Positions 3,911 through 16,261 of a DNA stretch of 60,786 nucleotides are shown one piece after another (the first letter of the stretch is position 1; every line of letters starts with the position of its first letter). The translations under genes were made by a program, and so were the position numbers. The stretch is from positions 1 to 60,786 of the forward strand of contig DASXKV010000042.1 in assembly GCA_036496605.1 (NCBI GenBank). The letters are read 5' to 3'. Under the pieces are notes generated by a model. It saw nothing but the letters and a program-made list of their open reading frames with translations, ran no database searches and was not told the DNA's origin. This DNA is from Gemmatimonadaceae bacterium. GTDB taxonomy: Bacteria; Gemmatimonadota; Gemmatimonadetes; Gemmatimonadales; Gemmatimonadaceae.

Positions 3911-4417
3911 ATGCGTCGCCGTCTCGCTATCACGTTTCTGCTGCTGCTGGCCGCTTGCGTCCTTCCCCAATACTCGCCACCGGCGCCGGCCGCGCCGCGA
4001 ACCGGCACTACCGTCTCGGCGTCGTTCGGCAAGACGTGGGATTCGATGATCGATGTCTTCGCGGCCCGCAACATCCAGATCAAGACGATCGACCGGGCAT
4101 CTGGCCTCATCGTAGCAGAACGCCAACGGGTCAGCGACGCCAACCCCGATGCGCTCGCTGACTGCGGCACGATGTCAAATGGCGGCGCGCATCTCTATCC
4201 GACTAACGCCGTCTGGAATGTGCTCGTCCGCGGCGACAGTAGTTCAGCAACCGTGAAAGCAACAGTGCGCTTCGCGTGGATCAATTCCGCTGCGGTTTCC
4301 GCACTTCATGTATCCGAGACTGATGCGACAAAGGAATGCGAGTCGCGCGGCGTGTGGGAGAGCGCGCTCGAACAACGCGTGAAGGCAACAGCCGAGGCCA
4401 AAAGTGCTAGCCGATGA
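3911..4417 (+). CDS. Putative lipoprotein
   Basis: The start at 3911 (MRRRLAITFLLLLAAC) gives a classic type II signal peptide with lipobox LAAC and a mature Cys at about residue 16. The mature part (about 150 residues) contains SFGKTWDSMIDVFAARNIQI and SGLIVAERQRVS, a pattern seen in BamC-like or LptE-like small outer-membrane lipoproteins that combine a conditional helix with beta-strands. The assignment is only structural. The end overlaps the GTG of the HTH gene by 14 bases. Confidence 0.65.
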   Translation: MRRRLAITFLLLLAACVLPQYSPPAPAAPRTGTTVSASFGKTWDSMIDVFAARNIQIKTIDRASGLIVAERQRVSDANPDALADCGTMSNGGAHLYPTNAVWNVLVRGDSSSATVKATVRFAWINSAAVSALHVSETDATKECESRGVWESALEQRVKATAEAKSASR

Positions 4418-4682
4418 GCGAGTTCACGTTGGATACGGGAGCGCCCTCGCAGAACTCCGCGCCGCCGCATCGCAACACGAGAGCCAGCTCCAGGCCGCGA
4501 GCTGGCTTGGGACGCGCGAGCTCATGACGCGCTGGGGCGTCGGCCGTGCGACCGTGCTCAGAATCCCGCGCGAGCAGTTGCCGTACCTGGAGTTCGGCTC
4601 GTCGAAGATGCGTCGGTATGCGCCCGACGATGTCGCGCGCTTCGAGGCCGAGCAGAAGTGCCCGGCGCAGGAGAAGGATTAG
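4404..4682 (+). CDS. Excisionase/MerR-like helix-turn-helix protein
   Basis: A GTG start at 4404 gives 92 residues. About residues 34-80 form a winged HTH of the excisionase type: ELMTRWGVGRATVLRI (helix-turn-helix), then LPYLEFGSSKMRRYAPDDVA (wing and final helix). Such proteins bend DNA in excision or act as small regulators. The N-terminal 33 residues are low-complexity. A 48-bp part of this gene is duplicated exactly at 2550-2597. Confidence 0.7.
   Translation: MLADERVHVGYGSALAELRAAASQHESQLQAASWLGTRELMTRWGVGRATVLRIPREQLPYLEFGSSKMRRYAPDDVARFEAEQKCPAQEKD
4508..4555. repeat. 48-bp exact repeat, copy 2 (in HTH gene)
   Basis: Identical to 2550-2597. Here the repeat lies inside an intact HTH gene, so this is the likely source copy. 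Confidence 0.9.
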
Positions 4683-4770
4683 AGCGCTCTCATTTTCGCT
4701 CTCCCTCTCGCGCTGCTCCGGGTCGACAGCGTAGGTTCTCGCGACCGTCGACCCGGAGCTACTCGAGATC

Positions 4771-5541
4771 ATGCCTGATGCGCACGAGGAGTTTTACCGC
4801 AGACAGCGTCAGGAAGATGAGAAAGAGAATGCATTCGCTCGCGAGCTATTCATCCGTGGGGTCGCCTTCATCCTGGATCTTCCAGGCGGGGTAAGCGCGC
4901 TGCTCAGCCGAGCGTTCGGCGAAGCGTCCAGTTATCTGGCGACGAAGCAAACCGGCCAGCTGGCGAGCCGCGTAGAGGACGTCGAAAGTCGTCTCGCTCG
5001 TTATGATGGCGGGTCGACGACGAGAATTAGCGGTGCGCGGGTTCAGCTCCTCGAAGTGACTCTGAACGCTGCGCTCCAGAAAATCTGGGACGGGGTTGAC
5101 TCTGGTGAGGCAATGATAGCGCTGGGTCTCACTCCCGATGAGTATGGTGAGGCCGCGCACGAGCTCGAGGAACTCGGCCTCGTCTACGCGGATCCGAGCG
5201 CGACCCATGCGGCCGGCATTGTTCGCACGCGGATCCGCGAAGCCGCAGCGCTGCAAGTCGGTCCGACGCTACGACCGGATATCGACTGGGAGCGTGACGT
5301 TGCGAAGATCCTGATTTCAATCGTTCGCGATCGCACGGAGGGTTACCAGTTCGCGGTGCAGACCCTCGCTGAAAAGACTGAGATCCCGCCTCCAAGGCTC
5401 AGCCTTCTACTTGATGCGCTCGAAGCGTTAGGTCTGATCGAGGGAGGCGGGCCCGGGAGCTATGAGTTTGGCTCCTTCCATTTCGTTGACCTCACGATAC
5501 GCGGCCGCCGTGTCCTCCGCGGCGACGCCTCCGTCCTCTAG
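4771..5541 (+). CDS. Hypothetical protein with C-terminal winged-helix-like region
   Basis: ATG 4771 gives 256 residues. The N-terminus is acidic and charged (HEEFYRRQRQEDEKENAF), followed by an amphipathic stretch and a helical region (about 55-75). Two helical repeats resemble winged helices: about 110-150 (ALGLTPDEYGEAAHELEELG) and about 195-240 (LAEKTEIPPPRLSLLLDALE, then GLIEGGG). The two similar helix-loop-helix-wing segments suggest a DNA- or protein-binding role. No catalytic motif is seen. It faces the minus-strand pair at 5636-7229. Confidence 0.6.
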   Translation: MPDAHEEFYRRQRQEDEKENAFARELFIRGVAFILDLPGGVSALLSRAFGEASSYLATKQTGQLASRVEDVESRLARYDGGSTTRISGARVQLLEVTLNAALQKIWDGVDSGEAMIALGLTPDEYGEAAHELEELGLVYADPSATHAAGIVRTRIREAAALQVGPTLRPDIDWERDVAKILISIVRDRTEGYQFAVQTLAEKTEIPPPRLSLLLDALEALGLIEGGGPGSYEFGSFHFVDLTIRGRRVLRGDASVL

Positions 5542-6011: not shown

Positions 6012-7229
6012 TCAACGCTGGGGTGCAGGGATGCGAGTGCCGTCGTCGTTGTACCACGGCGAGCGCGCGAAGCCCCACGCCTGCCACATCACGTGAAAGA
6101 GCGTCCGCGCCACTGCTGGCGCTTCATCCCAGCCTGAAAGGAGCATCGGTTCGATTGGGACTTCGCCGAGACTGCTCGTCTTTTGCCCTGCTCTTCGCCC
6201 TGAGACGAGCATGACGCCGCTGACTCCGTGCAACCGCAGGCTTACGACAAGTGGCGTAGTGAGCAAGTCCTCAGCCGCGAGCTGTTGAGCTTCATCTAAC
6301 GCATGGAGCACGTCGATCTCGACGCCGAGCCCAGACAGAGAGCGATTTCCTTGGCCATCGCTCTCTGTGTTGTCGATCTGAACGCATTCGATTCCGCTTT
6401 GACGAAGCAACATCGTCCATGCGTGAGCGCCGCCTTCAACGAAAGACCCGTACTCGGCCGCCAACCCATCAAGGCCGATACGAACATTGTTCGTCGTCCA
6501 TCGAAAGGCACTTACATTGTTCCATCGCTGCTGGATCGCTCGAGGGGAAAGATCCATACCGCCGATCGGCGGGAAGAGTGGAATAAGATGAAGTGCGATG
6601 AAGTCTGCGCCTGCGCTTCCCTCCGGTTTCGCTGTGCTTAGAATGTTCGCACGATTCTCTGCGTACTCTCGAATTGCTCCCACGCGTTGCGCGATAACTT
6701 CCCGGGCGCGATCGTAGGCGGTCTCGCTTCTCATCGCGACCTCTCGGATCTGCTGGGCGTTCATCGGATCGTTGGACACCGTCCCGCGCATGTAGAACCG
6801 AGGACGATGGCTCTTCATGGTGATCATGTGCGGAGCTCGCGGACTCGCCGGCACTCGTATCACGTAGAGATAAGTGCCGTCGCCAGTAGGAATCGCTCGG
6901 TGTTGAACGTTCAGTATCCGCTCGTCGACACTGTCGCGGAGCAGATTCGTTACAGTCAGCTCGATGCGATCAGGCTGGAGCGGCATACCGCGAAGGTCGA
7001 CGATTAGCCCGCGGTCTTCGCCCTCTCCCTCGACGGCGCCGTAGAGGATCGTCCCGCCCGAAGCATTTGCCATCGCGGTGACGTCCTGAAGGAGATCGAG
7101 CTTGCCAGAGTCGCTCACGTCGAGAACCTCCTTGTAGTCGAGCGTCCGATCCTCGCGCACTCGGCGTTCGATCATGTTCCGCGCGTGCTCAACCTTCAGT
7201 TCCGTGATGGGTACGGTGCGGATTGGCAT
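6012..7229 (-). CDS. AlbA_2 / Schlafen-like domain protein
   Basis: 405 residues. About residues 20-150 match the AlbA_2 (Schlafen AlbA_2, formerly AAA_4) fold: TLDYKEVLDVSDSGKLDLLQ, DVTAMANASGGTILYGAVEG, and later FYMRGTVSNDPMNAQQIREV. Family members bind nucleic acid or ATP and are frequent in mobile islands, sometimes in anti-phage loci. The C-terminal 200 residues are not recognised; they include WNNVSAFRWTTNNVRIGLDG and may form a separate sensor. The gene is preceded by a perfect 12-bp inverted repeat. A defence role is only a possibility. Confidence 0.75.
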   Translation of the reverse strand: MPIRTVPITELKVEHARNMIERRVREDRTLDYKEVLDVSDSGKLDLLQDVTAMANASGGTILYGAVEGEGEDRGLIVDLRGMPLQPDRIELTVTNLLRDSVDERILNVQHRAIPTGDGTYLYVIRVPASPRAPHMITMKSHRPRFYMRGTVSNDPMNAQQIREVAMRSETAYDRAREVIAQRVGAIREYAENRANILSTAKPEGSAGADFIALHLIPLFPPIGGMDLSPRAIQQRWNNVSAFRWTTNNVRIGLDGLAAEYGSFVEGGAHAWTMLLRQSGIECVQIDNTESDGQGNRSLSGLGVEIDVLHALDEAQQLAAEDLLTTPLVVSLRLHGVSGVMLVSGRRAGQKTSSLGEVPIEPMLLSGWDEAPAVARTLFHVMWQAWGFARSPWYNDDGTRIPAPQR

Positions 7230-7491: not shown

Positions 7492-8104
7492 CTAGTTCGC
7501 TGTGACCTCCTGAGTGGCGTTCCGCCGTTTGAGAGCGGAGCGATCTGGTACATTGTGCCGGGGGTGAAGCGCCGACCGGAGCTCCGCATGTTGTCGCATC
7601 CGATAGCTGTTGCCGCGGATGTTGACGATGTGACAGTGATGTACGAGGCGATCGATCAGCGCCGCCGCCATCACCTCGTCCCCAAAGATCTCGCCCCATT
7701 CCTCGAAGCCCTTGTTCGACGTGAGTACCGTCGACGCGCGCTCGTAGCGCCGCGCGATCACCTGGAAGAAGAGCATCGCGCCGGTGCGCGTGATCGGCAG
7801 ATAGCCAATCTCGTCAACGATGAGCAGACTTGGAAAGCTCAGCGTCTTGAGCCGGTGGATGAGGTGCCCCGCGGTCTGCGCCTCCTCAAGCGACGCGATC
7901 AGATCGCCTAACGTGCCGTAGTAGACCCGCCGGCCGCTCTCCGCCGCCGCAATCGCGAGACTGATCGCGAGGTGCGTCTTGCCGACCCCGGGTGGTCCGA
8001 GAAAAACGACATTCTCCTTGCGCTCGATGAAGCCTAACGTGTGCAAGCTCTCGAGCTGCTCGCGTTTGACGCTCGGCTGAAAACTGAATAGCTCGTTAGG
8101 CCCC
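7492..8104 (-). pseudogene. istB: IstB ATPase of IS21, N-terminally truncated
   Basis: IstB is the AAA+ helper ATPase of IS21 transposition. Visible motifs are a Walker A (FLGPPGVGKTHLAISLAI), Walker B (LLIVDEIGYLP), and the family end NIRGNSYRMRQ. The homologous frame opens with NELFSFQPSVKREQLESL near 8104 but has no ordinary start codon there. The roughly 60-residue helical N-terminal domain of IstB is absent, so the fusion with the istA tail is a deletion junction. The TTG at 8046 is the first possible start but would remove still more. Confidence 0.85.
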
Positions 8105-9815: not shown

Positions 9816-9849
9816 GATAGGGCAGGCTTACTTGTGCCTAGGCCCTATC
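9816..9849. terminator. Hairpin over the end of the repressor gene
   Basis: GATAGGGC-AGGC ... GCCT-AG-GCCCTATC forms an 8+4 bp stem that spans the stop codon (9828-9830) of the minus-strand repressor gene. It is likely a terminator or mRNA 3-prime end structure. Confidence 0.5.
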
Positions 9850-10517
9850 AGCCGAATGGTTGCAGCTGGGGAATAGGACCGCGTTTTCAAGAAGCGCCGC
9901 ACATGCGTCGCGAGTTCACGGCTCTGGGCAGGACTAAATCCGCTCAGCATTGCCTGGTGGATCAGACTCTTCTCCGCGATGAATTCGCGCTGGTCTTGAG
10001 CCGTCAGGAGCTCCAGCACTCGCTCGCCACGGCGCTCATTGAGCTTTCGCGCTATGCGCTCCTCCCACCAGTAGCGGACGAAGTCACTCAGCAATTCTGA
10101 GGACTCCGGGATTAGAGAGACGGCGAGTTCCTCGTCGCCCGATTCTGCCGTGCGCTCGATCTCATCAAGCACGTGACGTCGTAGGGCATCTGATAGCGCG
10201 GCTTGCGGGCGATCAGCCGAATGGTTCTCCGGACCGCCGCCGGTGAGCAGCCAATTGATGCTCAGACCCGCGCGAGCGAGTTGCAAGAGGGCCGGCGATG
10301 TTGGGGTGCTCGGATTCTTCGCGAACCAAGTCGATACGGTCGCCTTGCCCACGCCGAGTTGTTCAGCGAGGTGTTGTTGCGACTTGTAACGGGGATTCGC
10401 GCCCCTCAGGCACCACTCGCGCAGACGTTCGCGGATGGCCCTCGCCTCCTTCACCGGCAGCGACTTGATGCCTCCCTTGAGCTGCGTGCTCGAGGGCGTC
10501 CTCCGCGTTCGTGTCAT
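9828..10517 (-). CDS. CI-like phage/island repressor
   Basis: 229 residues. About residues 47-69 form a helix-turn-helix (QQHLAEQLGVGKATVSTWFA), followed by LALLQLARAGLSINWLLTGG-type sequence, characteristic of lambdoid-like repressors and their relatives. The C-terminal ~120 residues are helical; no S24/LexA Ser-Lys peptidase motif is visible, so SOS-type self-cleavage is not expected. It is divergent from the excisionase-like gene at 10629. The pair forms the usual lysogeny or maintenance switch of an integrated element. Confidence 0.75.
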   Translation of the reverse strand: MTRTRRTPSSTQLKGGIKSLPVKEARAIRERLREWCLRGANPRYKSQQHLAEQLGVGKATVSTWFAKNPSTPTSPALLQLARAGLSINWLLTGGGPENHSADRPQAALSDALRRHVLDEIERTAESGDEELAVSLIPESSELLSDFVRYWWEERIARKLNERRGERVLELLTAQDQREFIAEKSLIHQAMLSGFSPAQSRELATHVRRFLKTRSYSPAATIRLIGPRHK

Positions 10518-10628: not shown

Positions 10629-10823
10629 ATGGCAGACGAGAGAGTGTCGATCATGCGCGCGGCCGCCGCGCTGCGCCGGTCCTACAACCAGACCCTTCGT
10701 CTCGTGCTCGTAGGCGAGTTGCGGGGCGAGCAGGACGATCGGGGCCGCTGGTGGATCGACGCCGACGATCTCGCTCGTTATCTCCGCGAGCACTCGCGGC
10801 CCCAGGCCGCTGCTGTGGCCTAA
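10629..10823 (+). CDS. Excisionase/HTH_17-like small DNA-binding protein
   Basis: A GGAGGA Shine-Dalgarno 5 bases before ATG 10629 fixes the start; 64 residues. SIMRAAAALRRSYNQTLRLV is the HTH and GELRGEQDDRGRWWIDADDL the wing plus final helix, as in MerR/Xis-type proteins. It is the first gene of the plus-strand unit that ends in the integrase. It likely bends DNA for excision or regulates that operon. Confidence 0.75.
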   Translation: MADERVSIMRAAAALRRSYNQTLRLVLVGELRGEQDDRGRWWIDADDLARYLREHSRPQAAAVA

Positions 10824-10915: not shown

Positions 10916-11509
10916 GTGCGGAATACTACCAGCAAGGCTTTACGCTCGCAAGCGAAGCCTCACAGCGCCACGCCACTTTGGCCTCAGCACTCGAATCCGA
11001 AGTGTCCTTTCACAGAACTCTATCGGCGCCAGAGCGGACCAGCCTCTGAAGCTCTACGCTGGCCCGATCACACGGACCCGTTATGCACCTTCAGCGAGTT
11101 ATTTCGTACCACGCGCCGACATCCCCCCAACCAGCGCCGCAGCTCGGTTCGCACGCTGCGCGAACTGCTCACCGAATCGCCTGTAGTCTCGAAGAAGCGT
11201 CGGCGCCGATCGCTGCGGTTGACGGTCGGCGATCTCCTCGGGCCCGATGCATTTCCCCTAACGACGACGGGAGCATCGAGTGAGGCGACGACGCCCAGCG
11301 CGGACGGAGCCGCTGCACTGCACGTGCGCGGTTCGGCCAGTGGCCCACGAGCAGCACGGAAAGCCGCAGAATCGAGCGGCGGATCATACGAATCCCCGTT
11401 GCCCGCACTCCGAACTCAGACGGACCACTCGAGAGAGCGAGCGCAAGAAGAAGACGCGGAATCTCCGGCTCACGTTCGAGGAACTGTTTTGAAGCAAGCG
11501 AGAAGTTGA
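10916..11509 (+). CDS. Hypothetical protein with repeated HTxPxC-type modules
   Basis: GTG 10916 has an excellent ribosome site (AAGGAG, 9 bases upstream), giving 197 residues. Two modules are visible: HSNPKCPFTELYRRQ (about residue 25) and HTDPLCTFSELFRTT (about 52), then RTLRELLTES and RRSLRLTVGDLLG. After about residue 112 the sequence becomes low-complexity, and a third module appears in another frame (see 11280-11492). The stop codon overlaps the ATG of the replication gene (TGATG), which supports real use of this frame to the end. No known family. Confidence 0.5.
   Translation: MRNTTSKALRSQAKPHSATPLWPQHSNPKCPFTELYRRQSGPASEALRWPDHTDPLCTFSELFRTTRRHPPNQRRSSVRTLRELLTESPVVSKKRRRRSLRLTVGDLLGPDAFPLTTTGASSEATTPSADGAAALHVRGSASGPRAARKAAESSGGSYESPLPALRTQTDHSRERAQEEDAESPAHVRGTVLKQARS
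11280..11492 (+). CDS. Overlapping frame encoding a third HTxPxC module
   Basis: GTG 11280 follows GGGAG by 8 bases and encodes 70 residues ending ADHTNPRCPHSELRRTTRE and KTRNLRLTFEELF. These closely match the modules and the LRLTxxxLL element of the 10916 protein but lie in a different frame. Either the upstream gene has suffered a frameshift, or this is a separate short gene made by module duplication. The presence of a good ribosome site slightly favours the second. Confidence 0.45.
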   Translation: MRRRRPARTEPLHCTCAVRPVAHEQHGKPQNRAADHTNPRCPHSELRRTTRESERKKKTRNLRLTFEELF

Positions 11510-12402
11510 TGGGCGAGACGCTCAAGCCCTCGTACCGCTCTACTTTCGAGTCGCTCGCGGATGACGCGGATTTCCAGGAGCTCACGCCACTCGCCCAAGC
11601 GGTCTTCTGGTCGCTGAAACTGAAGCTTGGCCAGTATGGCATCGCCGTGTTCTACAAAGAGGCGTTGCCGGCCATGCATCGCCGCGCGACTGACCAGCAG
11701 ATCCAACAGGCGCTGCGCGAACTGGAAGCGCCCAAGCTGGGGCGTTCGCATGGTTGGATCCGAACCGAGCGAAACGTCGTGTGGATCGTGAACGGGCTCA
11801 AGTTCGAACCATCGTTCACGATTACTAATCCGAATCATCGAACCGGCGTTGTGCGATTCGTCCGCAACCTGCCCAGGCTACCCATCGTGGAAGCGTTCAT
11901 CACGCATTACGAACTTGACGCTACACCGGCGGGGGAATCTCCTTCACCGTCCCCTCCCCCAACCCATCCCCTATCCTATTCCCCATCCCATGGGGAATCA
12001 CAAGAGAAGACGAAGACGGAGACAAGCCCAGACAACACAAGTCCATCTTCTTCTCCCGCGCGCGTGACGCCGCTGCACGGTCGGCTCGCCAGCGAGAACG
12101 ACCGCGCGGCGCTCGACCTGCTACTCAGCGCTGTCTCGAATCCCAACACGTGGGTTGCCGACCTTGCGGCGTCCCTCGACGGCATGCCAGGCCACCGGCA
12201 CGTCACGCCGATCGAGCTCGGAATCGCGCTGCGCGCCTACGCCAAAAATGGCGCCCTCAAGAATCCGAATTCCGCGCAATTCGACGGGTATCTCCGTCGC
12301 GCGAAGTCGAGTGAGCCAGATCGCGCGAAGACGCAGAACGGCGCCGTGCCCAGATCGACGGCCGCAGTCCCGTCTGCATACGGAAAACTTCTCGGCGGCT
12401 GA
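11509..12402 (+). CDS. Putative replication initiator-like protein
   Basis: ATG 11509 gives 297 residues. The first 110 residues (TPLAQAVFWSLKLKLGQYGI, RATDQQIQQALRELEAPKLG, WIRTERNVVWIVNGLKFEP) have the winged-helix pattern of phage replication proteins of the DnaD/O-protein kind. A Ser/Pro-rich linker (about 145-185) follows, then a C-terminal helical domain. It lies directly upstream of the DnaC-like loader, the usual order for initiator and helicase loader in temperate phages and islands. Confidence 0.65.
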   Translation: MGETLKPSYRSTFESLADDADFQELTPLAQAVFWSLKLKLGQYGIAVFYKEALPAMHRRATDQQIQQALRELEAPKLGRSHGWIRTERNVVWIVNGLKFEPSFTITNPNHRTGVVRFVRNLPRLPIVEAFITHYELDATPAGESPSPSPPPTHPLSYSPSHGESQEKTKTETSPDNTSPSSSPARVTPLHGRLASENDRAALDLLLSAVSNPNTWVADLAASLDGMPGHRHVTPIELGIALRAYAKNGALKNPNSAQFDGYLRRAKSSEPDRAKTQNGAVPRSTAAVPSAYGKLLGG

Positions 12403-12406
12403 ACGA

Positions 12407-13183
12407 ATGTCACTCTCTAAGCTCGATACTCACATCGCATCGCGGCCTGCCGTTTGTCCGAACTGCCGAGGTGCATCGGTCGAACTGCAATTCCATCGCG
12501 AGTGGCGTTTCATCCCGATGCGCTGTGCGAGCTGCGTGTCGGAAGAGGAGGCTCGGACTGAACGCGAACGGCACGAACAACTTTGCCGCGAACGGCTGGC
12601 CGCACTGGTGGTCCCGTCGCTTTACGGGACGGTAACGTTTGAAAACTTTGAGATCCATGGCGACGCCGAATCCAGAGCTGCGCTCGCTCGTGCTCTGGAA
12701 TACGCAAAAGCTTACGTGGTGTCGTGGCCTAACGCCCCAGTGATCAGCGTGTTCTCGGGTGCGTGTGGAACGGGGAAGGGCCACCTGGTCTGGTCGATCG
12801 CGAAAAGGCTTGCCGGTGAACGCGCCGTGCTGAGTCGCGTCGTCGTCCTTTCGGACGTTATTCGCGATCTCCGTGAGGCGTGGGGCACACACGAGAGTGG
12901 CCCCAGTGAGGCACAGCGCCTCGCGAAATACCGCTCGCCCGAATTCCTCACCGTCGACGAAGTATCTCGGCACGCCTTCTTTGGTCAGCCGCAACAGCAT
13001 CTCTATGATCTGATCGCATGGCGCGAGGAACGGCAGAAGCCGACGATCCTAACGACAAACGATCGAGGAGAGGAGCTCGTGGCTCTGCTCGGACCGGCGA
13101 TCTCGAGCCGAGCGGCCGGCTGGCGTGGATTTATCGATTTCGGCGGTGCAGACTATCGCGTTTCCTACGGGCTCCGCCGATGA
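12407..13183 (+). CDS. DnaC-like AAA+ helicase loader with zinc ribbon
   Basis: ATG 12407 gives 258 residues. An N-terminal zinc ribbon has C17-x2-C20 and C40-x2-C43. Walker A GACGTGKGH is at 118-126 with K124; Walker B FLTVDEV is at 180-186; sensor 1 ILTTND is near 214-219. This is the DnaC/DnaI type that loads the replicative helicase. The His after the Walker A Lys-Gly, in place of the usual Thr/Ser, is unusual. It starts 4 bases after the initiator-like gene and overlaps the next gene by 4 bases. Confidence 0.8.
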   Translation: MSLSKLDTHIASRPAVCPNCRGASVELQFHREWRFIPMRCASCVSEEEARTERERHEQLCRERLAALVVPSLYGTVTFENFEIHGDAESRAALARALEYAKAYVVSWPNAPVISVFSGACGTGKGHLVWSIAKRLAGERAVLSRVVVLSDVIRDLREAWGTHESGPSEAQRLAKYRSPEFLTVDEVSRHAFFGQPQQHLYDLIAWREERQKPTILTTNDRGEELVALLGPAISSRAAGWRGFIDFGGADYRVSYGLRR

Positions 13184-13742: not shown

Positions 13743-14095
13743 CGACACTCACGCTCGAGCAGGTCCTTGCCGACGCGCGCGAACACGCGAGCACGTTGAA
13801 AATCACTGGGAACTCGGGTCAGGCGGCGTATCTCGAGCAGCTTCTCGATTGCGTCGCCAGCCTCACTGAGGACGTGCGGATGTTCGTCGGCGAATCGGAT
13901 GCGGCGCTCGCGTCGGGCCTGGCCGAGAGGACGCTGCGGCGACGCTTCAACGAGTGGCTCGAGACGGGGCACGCGCGCTACAATGTGCGCAATGAGCGCG
14001 AGTACCGGCTCGATATTGTGCGGAGAAAGCCGGGTCGTGAACGCGCGATCCGCGCACGCGTGCGCCGTCGCCTAGGCCGGAGTGCGGTGACATGA
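13739..14095 (+). CDS. Small helical protein, paralogue of the gene at 5636
   Basis: 118 residues starting MTTLTLEQVLADAREHASTL, followed by GNSGQAAYLEQLLDCVASLT, FVGESDAALASGLAERTLRR, RFNEWLETGHARYNVRNERE and a very basic C-terminus. The domain order, spacing and the RF-x2-W-x-E-x-G-x-ARYN core match the product at 5636-6004. The basic tail and helix pairs suggest DNA binding. It overlaps the integrase start by 4 bases (ATGA), so a role in integration or its control is plausible. Confidence 0.75.
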   Translation: MTTLTLEQVLADAREHASTLKITGNSGQAAYLEQLLDCVASLTEDVRMFVGESDAALASGLAERTLRRRFNEWLETGHARYNVRNEREYRLDIVRRKPGRERAIRARVRRRLGRSAVT

Positions 14096-15627
14096 GCCCG
14101 AACCGGAAAGAGCTCGAGCGATTCGGCCGCCGCGGCCGCAAGGATTACGTGCGCGTCGTGCGCGAGCCGGTTCGTCGCGTCTCGCATGTGCGCGTGCTCT
14201 GGAAGGATGCGACCGGCCGGAAGGTTGAGTCGTTCCCTGATAACCGCGCGGGCATTGCCGACGCGAAGCTATTCGCCGAAACGCTTCACGAGGAGCTGCG
14301 CGCCGGCCCGTGGCAAGCCGCGCCAGCAGCGGCCGCTGAGCGACCACGCCTAACGAATCGCCAAATTCGCGAAAAGTACGAGGATGCGCACGCCGCAGAC
14401 TGGCGGTCGAAAACGCTCGTCGGATTCCGGCGACAGTGGTCGAAGTACGAGCTCTTCGCCGATCGCGACGCACCGGCCGACGCCACAACGCGCGAGTTGC
14501 TCGACCAGTTCAAAGCGCAGCTCGTCGCGCGCGGCCATTCGGTGAATCAGGTGCGGCATATCTTGCACGCGGTCATCCATGTATTTCGTTGGGCTGTCGA
14601 TCGCGATCTGATCGAGCCAACGAAAGTCACGAATTACGTCGTGAAGTTCGGCCGCGATGCGCAGCGCCAGCGCGCGGTCATGACGGAATTCAGCGCGGGC
14701 GAGCGAGAACGGATCCTCGCCCAGCTGTCGCCGCGCGAGAACCGGTTATGGCGACCGCACGTTGCGAATACACTCGTCGGCTACTGCGGCGTTCGGATCA
14801 ATGCCGCCCTCCACCTGACATGGCCTGACGTCGATTTCGCGGGCGAGCAGATCCGCTGGCGCGCGGAGACCGACAAAATGGGGAAGGAGCGCTGGCAGCC
14901 TATGCCGACGCCCGTGAAAGAGGCGCTCTGGATCGCGTATGGCTGGCGGTGCGCCGAGGAGTACACGGGACCGTTTGTGCTCTTTGGCGTCCAGCGCCGC
15001 ACGCGCGGTCACGCGCTCAAGCGGCGGGACACGCATCATGCGGTCGCCAGGACGACGCTGGAGGGCGTGACGGTGCGGGAGAAGCCCTGGACCTACTCCG
15101 CGTATGTCGCGGCCCTCCACGCGGCCGAGCGGCGCGCCGGGATCGATCCGGTGAAGTGGCGCGGTGCCCACGGATTCCGCCGCGGTATCGCCGGCGACCT
15201 GTTCGCGCGGACCGGTTCAGAGAAGACCGCAGCAGAGTGGTTAGGCGACAAGGATGTGCAGATCGTCCGCGATCACTACTTGCTCACGCGCAAAGAGGAG
15301 ATGCGCAAGCTCGCGGCGCTCGTGAGCGCGCCGGCGCCGAGCCCCGAAACAACCCGAAAGGGCGAAGCTCAAACGCTACCGAATGCAAACACCCTCGCTG
15401 TGGACGAGGGCGGAGCAGGGTTAACCCCTGAATCGACCACCTTAACAGAGAGCCAGCGGTCGGGATTGAACCGACGACCGCTCGATTACGAATCGAGTGC
15501 TCTACCACTGAGCTACGCTGGCGTTAGCAACTGCTCAATGCCCTGGCGCGGACTCGAACCGCGACGCCTTGCGGCACCACCCCCTCAAGATGGCGTGTCT
15601 ACCAATTTCACCACCAGGGCGCATTGA
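14092..15627 (+). CDS. int: Tyrosine integrase, frame running into tRNA genes
   Basis: 511 codons. SAM-like core-binding domain about residues 85-180; catalytic domain about 200-410. Visible catalytic residues: Arg in GVRINAALHLTW, Lys in TDKMGKERW, HxxR in HGFRRGIAGDL and the Tyr in RDHYLLTRKEE; the usual second His of GH is replaced (WLGDKD). After about residue 450 the frame is antisense to tRNA-Thr and tRNA-Leu (QRSGLNRRPLDYES and following). This tail is typical of integrases whose att site lies in a tRNA, so the last ~60 codons may not be original. It is the last gene of a six-gene overlapping operon. Confidence 0.9.
   Translation: MSPNRKELERFGRRGRKDYVRVVREPVRRVSHVRVLWKDATGRKVESFPDNRAGIADAKLFAETLHEELRAGPWQAAPAAAAERPRLTNRQIREKYEDAHAADWRSKTLVGFRRQWSKYELFADRDAPADATTRELLDQFKAQLVARGHSVNQVRHILHAVIHVFRWAVDRDLIEPTKVTNYVVKFGRDAQRQRAVMTEFSAGERERILAQLSPRENRLWRPHVANTLVGYCGVRINAALHLTWPDVDFAGEQIRWRAETDKMGKERWQPMPTPVKEALWIAYGWRCAEEYTGPFVLFGVQRRTRGHALKRRDTHHAVARTTLEGVTVREKPWTYSAYVAALHAAERRAGIDPVKWRGAHGFRRGIAGDLFARTGSEKTAAEWLGDKDVQIVRDHYLLTRKEEMRKLAALVSAPAPSPETTRKGEAQTLPNANTLAVDEGGAGLTPESTTLTESQRSGLNRRPLDYESSALPLSYAGVSNCSMPWRGLEPRRLAAPPPQDGVSTNFTTRAH
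15451..15522 (-). tRNA. tRNA-Thr (CGT)
   Basis: Acceptor GCCAGCG/CGCTGGC, D-arm with AGCTCAGTGGTAGAGC, anticodon stem CTCGA/TCGAG with loop TTCGTAA (anticodon CGT), T-loop TTCAATC, discriminator U. The 3-prime end abuts the island and is overlapped by the integrase reading frame. Confidence 0.97.
15539..15620 (-). tRNA. tRNA-Leu (GAG)
   Basis: Acceptor GCCCTGG/CCAGGGC, discriminator A, anticodon stem CCATC/GGTGG with loop TTGAGGG (anticodon GAG), and a long variable arm (TGCCGCAAGGCG), as expected of a class II tRNA. Confidence 0.96.
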
Positions 15628-15650
15628 ACATCTTCTAAACATCTATGCTA

Positions 15651-15725
15651 CGGAGCCGACGGGGCTCGAACCCGCGACCTCTCGAGTGACAGTCGAGTGC
15701 TCTAACCAAGCTGAGCTACGGCTCC
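15651..15725 (-). tRNA. tRNA-Asp (GTC)
   Basis: Acceptor GGAGCCG/CGGCTCC, anticodon loop CTGTCAC in stem CTCGA/TCGAG (anticodon GTC), T-loop TTCGAGC, discriminator G. Confidence 0.97.
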
Positions 15726-15794
15726 TTGCTCGCTTGCGCTCGCAGGAGCGCTTACCAGCCTAACGATTCCTTATTCCCCATCCATTCCCCTAAA

Positions 15795-15866
15795 TAGCCC
15801 GTACGGGAATCGAACCCGTCTTTGCACCGTGAAAGGGTGCCGTCCTAGCCGATAGACGAACGGGCC
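15795..15866 (-). tRNA. tRNA-Glu (TTC)
   Basis: Acceptor GGCCCGT/ACGGGCT (G-U first pair), anticodon stem GCACC/GGTGC with loop CTTTCAC (anticodon TTC), T-loop TTCGATT, discriminator A. Confidence 0.97.
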
Positions 15867-15885
15867 CTGACGGGCCGCAGTGAAA

Positions 15886-15958
15886 TAGCGGTAACGGGAT
15901 TCGAACCCGTGTTTGAGCCTTGAGAGGGCTCCGTCCTAGTCCCCTAGACGATACCGCC
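15886..15958 (-). tRNA. tRNA-Glu (CTC)
   Basis: Acceptor GGCGGTA/TACCGCT, anticodon stem GAGCC/GGCTC with loop CTCTCAA (anticodon CTC), T-loop TTCGAAT. It is the second Glu isoacceptor, adjacent to tRNA-Glu(TTC). Confidence 0.97.
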
Positions 15959-15962
15959 AGAT

Positions 15963-15983
15963 GCAACCGCCGGAGGCGGTTGC
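15963..15983. other. Hairpin in tRNA operon spacer
   Basis: GCAACCGCC GGA GGCGGTTGC, a perfect 9-bp stem with a 3-base loop between tRNA-Glu(CTC) and tRNA-Trp. It lies inside the presumed polycistronic transcript and may be a processing signal. The phrase GCTCGCTTGCGCTCGC recurs in the nearby spacers (about 15,729 and 15,998). Confidence 0.6.
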
Positions 15984-16071
15984 CTCTGGCAGTAGTTGCT
16001 CGCTTGCGCTCGCAACAAGCCTATATGGTGTCGCGCGCGCTTCGCTTGCGCTCCTCCCGCTTATCAAACAG

Positions 16072-16106
16072 CCCTAACCCCTACCACCCTAAACCCTAGA
16101 CCCTCG
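16072..16106. repeat. Heptad repeat (CCCTAAA-type), locus 1
   Basis: Five degenerate 7-base units (CCTAACC, CCTACCA, CCCTAAA, CCCTAGA, CCCTCGT) just upstream of tRNA-Trp in + coordinates. Part of a window-wide class of heptad repeats. Confidence 0.6.
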
Positions 16107-16110
16107 TTGA

Positions 16111-16183
16111 CAGGCCGGGAGGGACTTGAACCCCCAACCGCTGGTTTTGGAGACCAGTGCTCTACCAATTGAGCTACCGACCT
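16111..16183 (-). tRNA. tRNA-Trp (CCA)
   Basis: Acceptor AGGTCGG against CCGGCCT with a wobble pair, anticodon stem CTGGT/ACCAG with loop CTCCAAA (anticodon CCA), T-loop TTCAAGT, discriminator G. Confidence 0.96.
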
Positions 16184-16186
16184 AAG

Positions 16187-16261
16187 GGTGACTGAGGGGA
16201 CTTGAACCCCCAACCCCCGGAGCCACAGTCCGGTGCTCTAACCGGTTGAGCTACAGTCACC
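16187..16261 (-). tRNA. tRNA-His (GTG)
   Basis: Extra 5-prime G (position -1) paired with discriminator C, acceptor GTGACTG/CAGTCAC, anticodon stem CCGGA/TCCGG with loop CTGTGGC (anticodon GTG). It is the first tRNA of the cluster in transcription order. Confidence 0.97.

Follow-up and report, generated by a model that had tools for sequence, protein, structure and literature searches.

Comparison with lambda-type early operons and overlapping genes

The closest described gene arrangement is the lambda-type early operon, with the genes cI, cro, cII, O and P. Overprinted overlapping genes provide a second point of reference: in the account of PMC4683798, overprinting makes an unrelated new protein. 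The window analyzed here, the whole stretch of 60,786 nucleotides, is one contig of a Gemmatimonadaceae genome of 5.97 Mb in 70 contigs. From 9828 to about 15600 it carries an integrated element, which is small and prophage-like. The order of its genes is a CI-like repressor, a small helix-turn-helix (HTH) protein, two open reading frames that we call A and B, an initiator-like gene (rep), a DnaC-like loader, small ORFs, and an integrase beside tRNAs:

9828..10517, minus strand: CI-like repressor, divergent (Pfam Phage_CI_repr, 8.1e-10; PHROG repressor, 1.3e-9)
10629..10823, plus strand: small protein at the place of cro/AlpA, HTH-like (HTH_17 at E 0.016, which misses the curated cut-off)
10916..11509, plus strand: ORF A, GTG start, 197 codons, open frame with TGA at 11507-11509
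10976..11038, plus strand: module 1, frame A (LWPQHSNPKCPFTELYRRQSG)
11057..11119, plus strand: module 2, frame A (RWPDHTDPLCTFSELFRTTRR)
11213..11239 (approximate), plus strand: tail motif LRLTVGDLL, frame A (LRLTFEELF corresponds to it in B)
11280..11492, plus strand: ORF B, starting with GTG, 70 aa, lying within the 3' part of A in another frame
11373..11435, plus strand: module 3, frame B (RAADHTNPRCPHSELRRTTRE)
11509..12402, plus strand: rep, initiator-like gene, conserved N-terminal part (from homologues)
12410..13183 (start approximate), plus strand: DnaC-like helicase loader (phrog_50, 2.3e-31)
14092..15627, plus strand: tyrosine integrase (Pfam Phage_integrase, 7.6e-9; phrog_1, 4.5e-25)

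The element shares with the lambda-type operon the divergent CI-like repressor, the small HTH protein, the initiator-like gene and the DnaC-like loader, and A and B occupy the position of cII. It differs in that A and B match no CII and no other PHROG or Pfam family. Compared with the overprinted genes of PMC4683798, the likeness is that two proteins would come from one stretch in different frames; the difference is that the nested B is a paralogue of the upstream part of A, and it is the run-on tail of A that would be new.

The integrase frame crosses tRNA-Thr and tRNA-Leu in antisense, at the border of an array of seven tRNAs (15450-16260), and this border is probably the attachment region. 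No att repeats were found around the element beyond the similarity of the tRNAs to each other, and its left edge was not located. No head or tail genes were recognized in the element, and a scan for consensus promoters and terminators between 10400 and 12450 found nothing. The rep gene of the element has no significant PHROG match, and its homologues occur in five other genera of the family and on one viral contig; the same-family genome G082 carries one. The viral contig (L031, 41 kb) encodes the closest relative of rep at 3989-5059, with 58% identity, downstream of a different gene whose stop overlaps the rep start (GTGA).

Three copies of a His-Pro-Cys module lie in two overlapping frames

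The frame that starts at 10916 holds HSNPKCPFTELYRR from 10988 and HTDPLCTFSELFRTT from 11069, while the frame that starts at 11280 holds HTNPRCPHSELRRTT from 11385. These peptides had been quoted in a preliminary description made from the letters alone, and we found each of them in the frame assigned to it. Together they define the module H[ST][ND]PxC[PT][FH][ST]EL. In A, both modules extend to WP[QD]H, a point that the preliminary description missed.

We wrote a degenerate DNA pattern, encoding H[ST][ND]PxCx[FHYL][ST]EL, from the three copies themselves. With up to three mismatches, it matches the window three times, against a chance expectation of 0.14 and with none of 100 shuffles reaching three matches. 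As the pattern derives from these copies, their matching is by construction, and its absence elsewhere is the informative part: a search of the order (287 further genomes) and of the rest of a 394-genome class sample gave no match, and a stricter version had none in IMG/VR. The module, called unfamiliar in the preliminary description, matches no family in Pfam, NCBIfam or the informative PHROGs.

ORF B is a diverged paralogue of part of ORF A

The two proteins share more than the module. In both, the module is followed by a basic linker and then by LRLTVGDLL in A or LRLTFEELF in B, the latter running up to the TGA at 11490-11492. The copy in A had previously been overlooked. The score of the alignment of the post-module parts was reached by only 2 of 5000 shuffles, and the complete A and B proteins gave a Smith-Waterman score of 74, while the best of 5000 shuffles scored 64. 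This similarity is specific to the two frames, since all other same-strand frame pairings scored at most 29. A comparison of one half of A with the other likewise exceeded 5000 shuffles.

At the DNA level, the modules are only about 55% identical (24-25 of 45 bases), and blastn did not align the A region significantly with the B region (E above 1). Pairs of modules share 7 to 10 of their 15 residues, and 4 to 7 of these shared residues are encoded by different codons. Because A already holds the counterpart of LRLTFEELF, the sequence comparison indicates that B is a diverged paralogue of module 2 plus the tail motif of A, not a fresh tandem copy. Of the scenario first suggested, in which a module was duplicated in tandem and the frame then changed, the duplicated module is supported and a recent event is not. 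With so many bases and codons changed, the alternative then offered, a fresh pseudogene, is unlikely. The lack of DNA-level similarity, together with the many synonymous differences at conserved residues, suggests protein constraint on both frames, and the sequences fit a model in which A and B are old paralogues kept at the protein level in two frames. Over the stretch where they overlap, the module of frame B is conserved relative to A.

Starts, open frames and coupling to rep

The GTG codons at 10916 and 11280 are preceded by Shine-Dalgarno sequences with anti-Shine-Dalgarno duplex energies of -8.0 and -6.6, respectively, against a background 5% point of -6.4. Both are therefore stronger than about 95% of random positions, in agreement with the good ribosome sites first described. 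Upstream of 11280, plus-strand codon usage weakly favors frame A, and past 11283 it weakly favors frame B, with one minus-strand frame over B scoring about equally. The sequence supports a putative dual-frame gene, as first proposed: both of the overlapping frames are long, and both begin plausibly.

Frame A has no stop before 11507, so a ribosome starting at 10916 would read across B unless the frame shifts. Given the amino acids of B, frame A stays open over its 75-codon tail in about 10% of resampled sequences; given the tail of A, chance alone would keep frame B open 89% of the time. In this GC-rich DNA, these rates are uninformative for B and lend slight support to the tail of A. The tail peptide over B includes AAESSGGSYESPLPALR, and the frame B peptide at the module includes HTNPR. 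After 11283, the tail is similar to nothing and has a neutral composition, and it may have come about through the loss of a stop.

The stop of A overlaps the ATG of rep in the sequence TGATG (11507-11511), which bears out the overlap noted initially, and B ends 16 bases before the rep start. In four of the six rep homologues examined (L023, L024, L027 and L031), the rep start likewise overlaps the stop of an upstream ORF. This shared arrangement supports that the end of A at the rep start is real.

The search for relatives

Searches for relatives of A or B found none by tblastn of phages (E up to 10) or of plasmids, none in Pfam, NCBIfam or among informative PHROG families, none in the PDB (searched with residues 1-121 of A only), and none in IMG/VR with peptide seeds. 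In 179 genomes of the family, tblastn returned only noise besides the A/B locus itself. The regions upstream of the rep homologues hold other genes and no modules. An orthologue carrying every module in a single frame, which the preliminary description had proposed as a sign of a simple frameshift, did not turn up in the order, the class, IMG/VR, phages or plasmids, and neither did an A/B orthologue of any other kind.

One profile match to the module stood out: HMRPACPHSELWRCTR, on a Gemmatimonadaceae prophage contig (L049, 7614-8480; also IMGVR_UViG_3300005531_000214), with an E of 4.8e-4 per genome over 179 genomes, and it may be due to chance. It resembles our locus in the module match and in lying on a contig with a related integrase that is listed in IMG/VR. 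It differs in having a single module within an otherwise unrelated ORF of 288 aa, which has a coding-like base pattern. The other weak profile hits inspected in the family and class searches were mostly short or interrupted chance frames, and the remaining hits of the wider class search were at noise level. The L049 contig also encodes a D5-like primase/helicase at 100-1632 (Pfam D5_N, 6.7e-35).

Possible function of the A and B products

The predicted isoelectric points are 11.5 for residues 1-121 of A and 11.3 for B, so both are strongly basic. Single-sequence structure models gave no confident fold and were too poor for structure searching. The products are small, basic and probably disordered, although the lack of a confident single-sequence fold speaks only weakly for disorder when taken by itself. 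Both chains combine a basic character with short conserved motifs. From this composition and from the position of the genes, our best guess is that the modules dock to a partner or supply ligands for zinc in an early-operon accessory or regulatory protein. Each module has one invariant His and one invariant Cys, which are too few for a zinc site unless two modules pair.

Two more specific candidates were rejected. A and B match no regulator family, so we do not regard them as CII-like or as another known phage regulator. Sliding-clamp-binding motifs usually carry a glutamine; it is absent from FSELF, and this reading was dropped.

Models for the arrangement of A and B

We hold with moderate confidence that A and B are separately initiated, diverged paralogous genes of a lambda-like early operon, in which B is nested and the products would be accessory adaptors. 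The paralogy, the frame-specific protein similarity, the Shine-Dalgarno sites and the operon context are what the sequence contributes to this model. From there, we infer that both frames would be translated, that their overlap would be functional, and the whole of the biochemical role. In this model, both genes belong to the early operon of a lambda-like integrated element, oriented divergently to its repressor, and each protein has the module and then a basic linker that ends with LRLT-x-x-[DE]-L-[LF]. A would run out of frame across B until its stop, coupled to rep, while B would be started within A from a GTG of its own. Both proteins would most likely be accessory adaptors in the switch to replication of the element, with the H-x4-C / FSELF modules docking to a partner or binding zinc and the basic linkers contacting nucleic acid. 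More tentatively, A might have been extended out of frame across its sister gene B, so that it is now coupled to rep, and the His-Pro-Cys module might be a new docking or zinc module.

Three other explanations were considered. The first draws on a TAA of frame B at 11259-11261, which separates LRLTVGDLL from the Shine-Dalgarno sequence of B; the succession of TAA, Shine-Dalgarno and GTG resembles an ordinary gene junction. A and B could be tandem paralogues of which A once ended just before B and recently lost that end, its tail over B being a meaningless run-on. The neutral composition of that tail after 11283 and its resemblance to nothing agree with this; however, 75 open codons would arise by chance only about one time in ten, and the tail ends exactly on the rep start, coupled as in four of six homologues that have other genes upstream. 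On balance, we consider a run-on unlikely. In the second, A and B are fragments of a single gene: their frames are one step apart with modules on either side, as would be seen if a single ancestral three-module gene had been split by a one-base change in length, by mutation or assembly error, somewhere from about 11262 to 11385. No orthologue was found that would argue against splitting, yet B possesses a start codon of its own, preceded by a good Shine-Dalgarno sequence, and the complete LRLTVGDLL of A before the junction parallels the end of B, which fits two genes better. We regard such a split, too, as improbable. The +1 offset and the modules on both sides of the junction would equally allow programmed frameshifting to make an A-B fusion, a three-module protein. 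Here, inspection of the sequence after 11262 revealed no recognizable shift site, and the independent start of B with its Shine-Dalgarno sequence again argues against the idea, to which we give very little credence.

If both frames are translated, as in the preferred model of separately initiated paralogues, the locus would be a compact case of overlapping-gene birth with related ORFs, and the small module that it would define, which belongs to no known family, would come from phages of a phylum that has received little study. Should just one of the frames be in use, A and B would be an ordinary pair of phage orphan genes. We see in A and B a small phage curiosity that is restricted to its lineage and whose motif has no earlier description.

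Other features of the window

Two further features were noted. On the minus strand, a gene with a Schlafen/AlbA_2 domain (Pfam, 2.2e-11) lies beside an IstB-like IS21 ATPase that is without its N-terminal part (6012-7229 and 7492-8046). Finally, a 54-nt direct repeat at 2547-2600 and 4505-4558, with 96% identity and a spacing of 1958 bases, may encode a repeated helix-turn-helix stretch.
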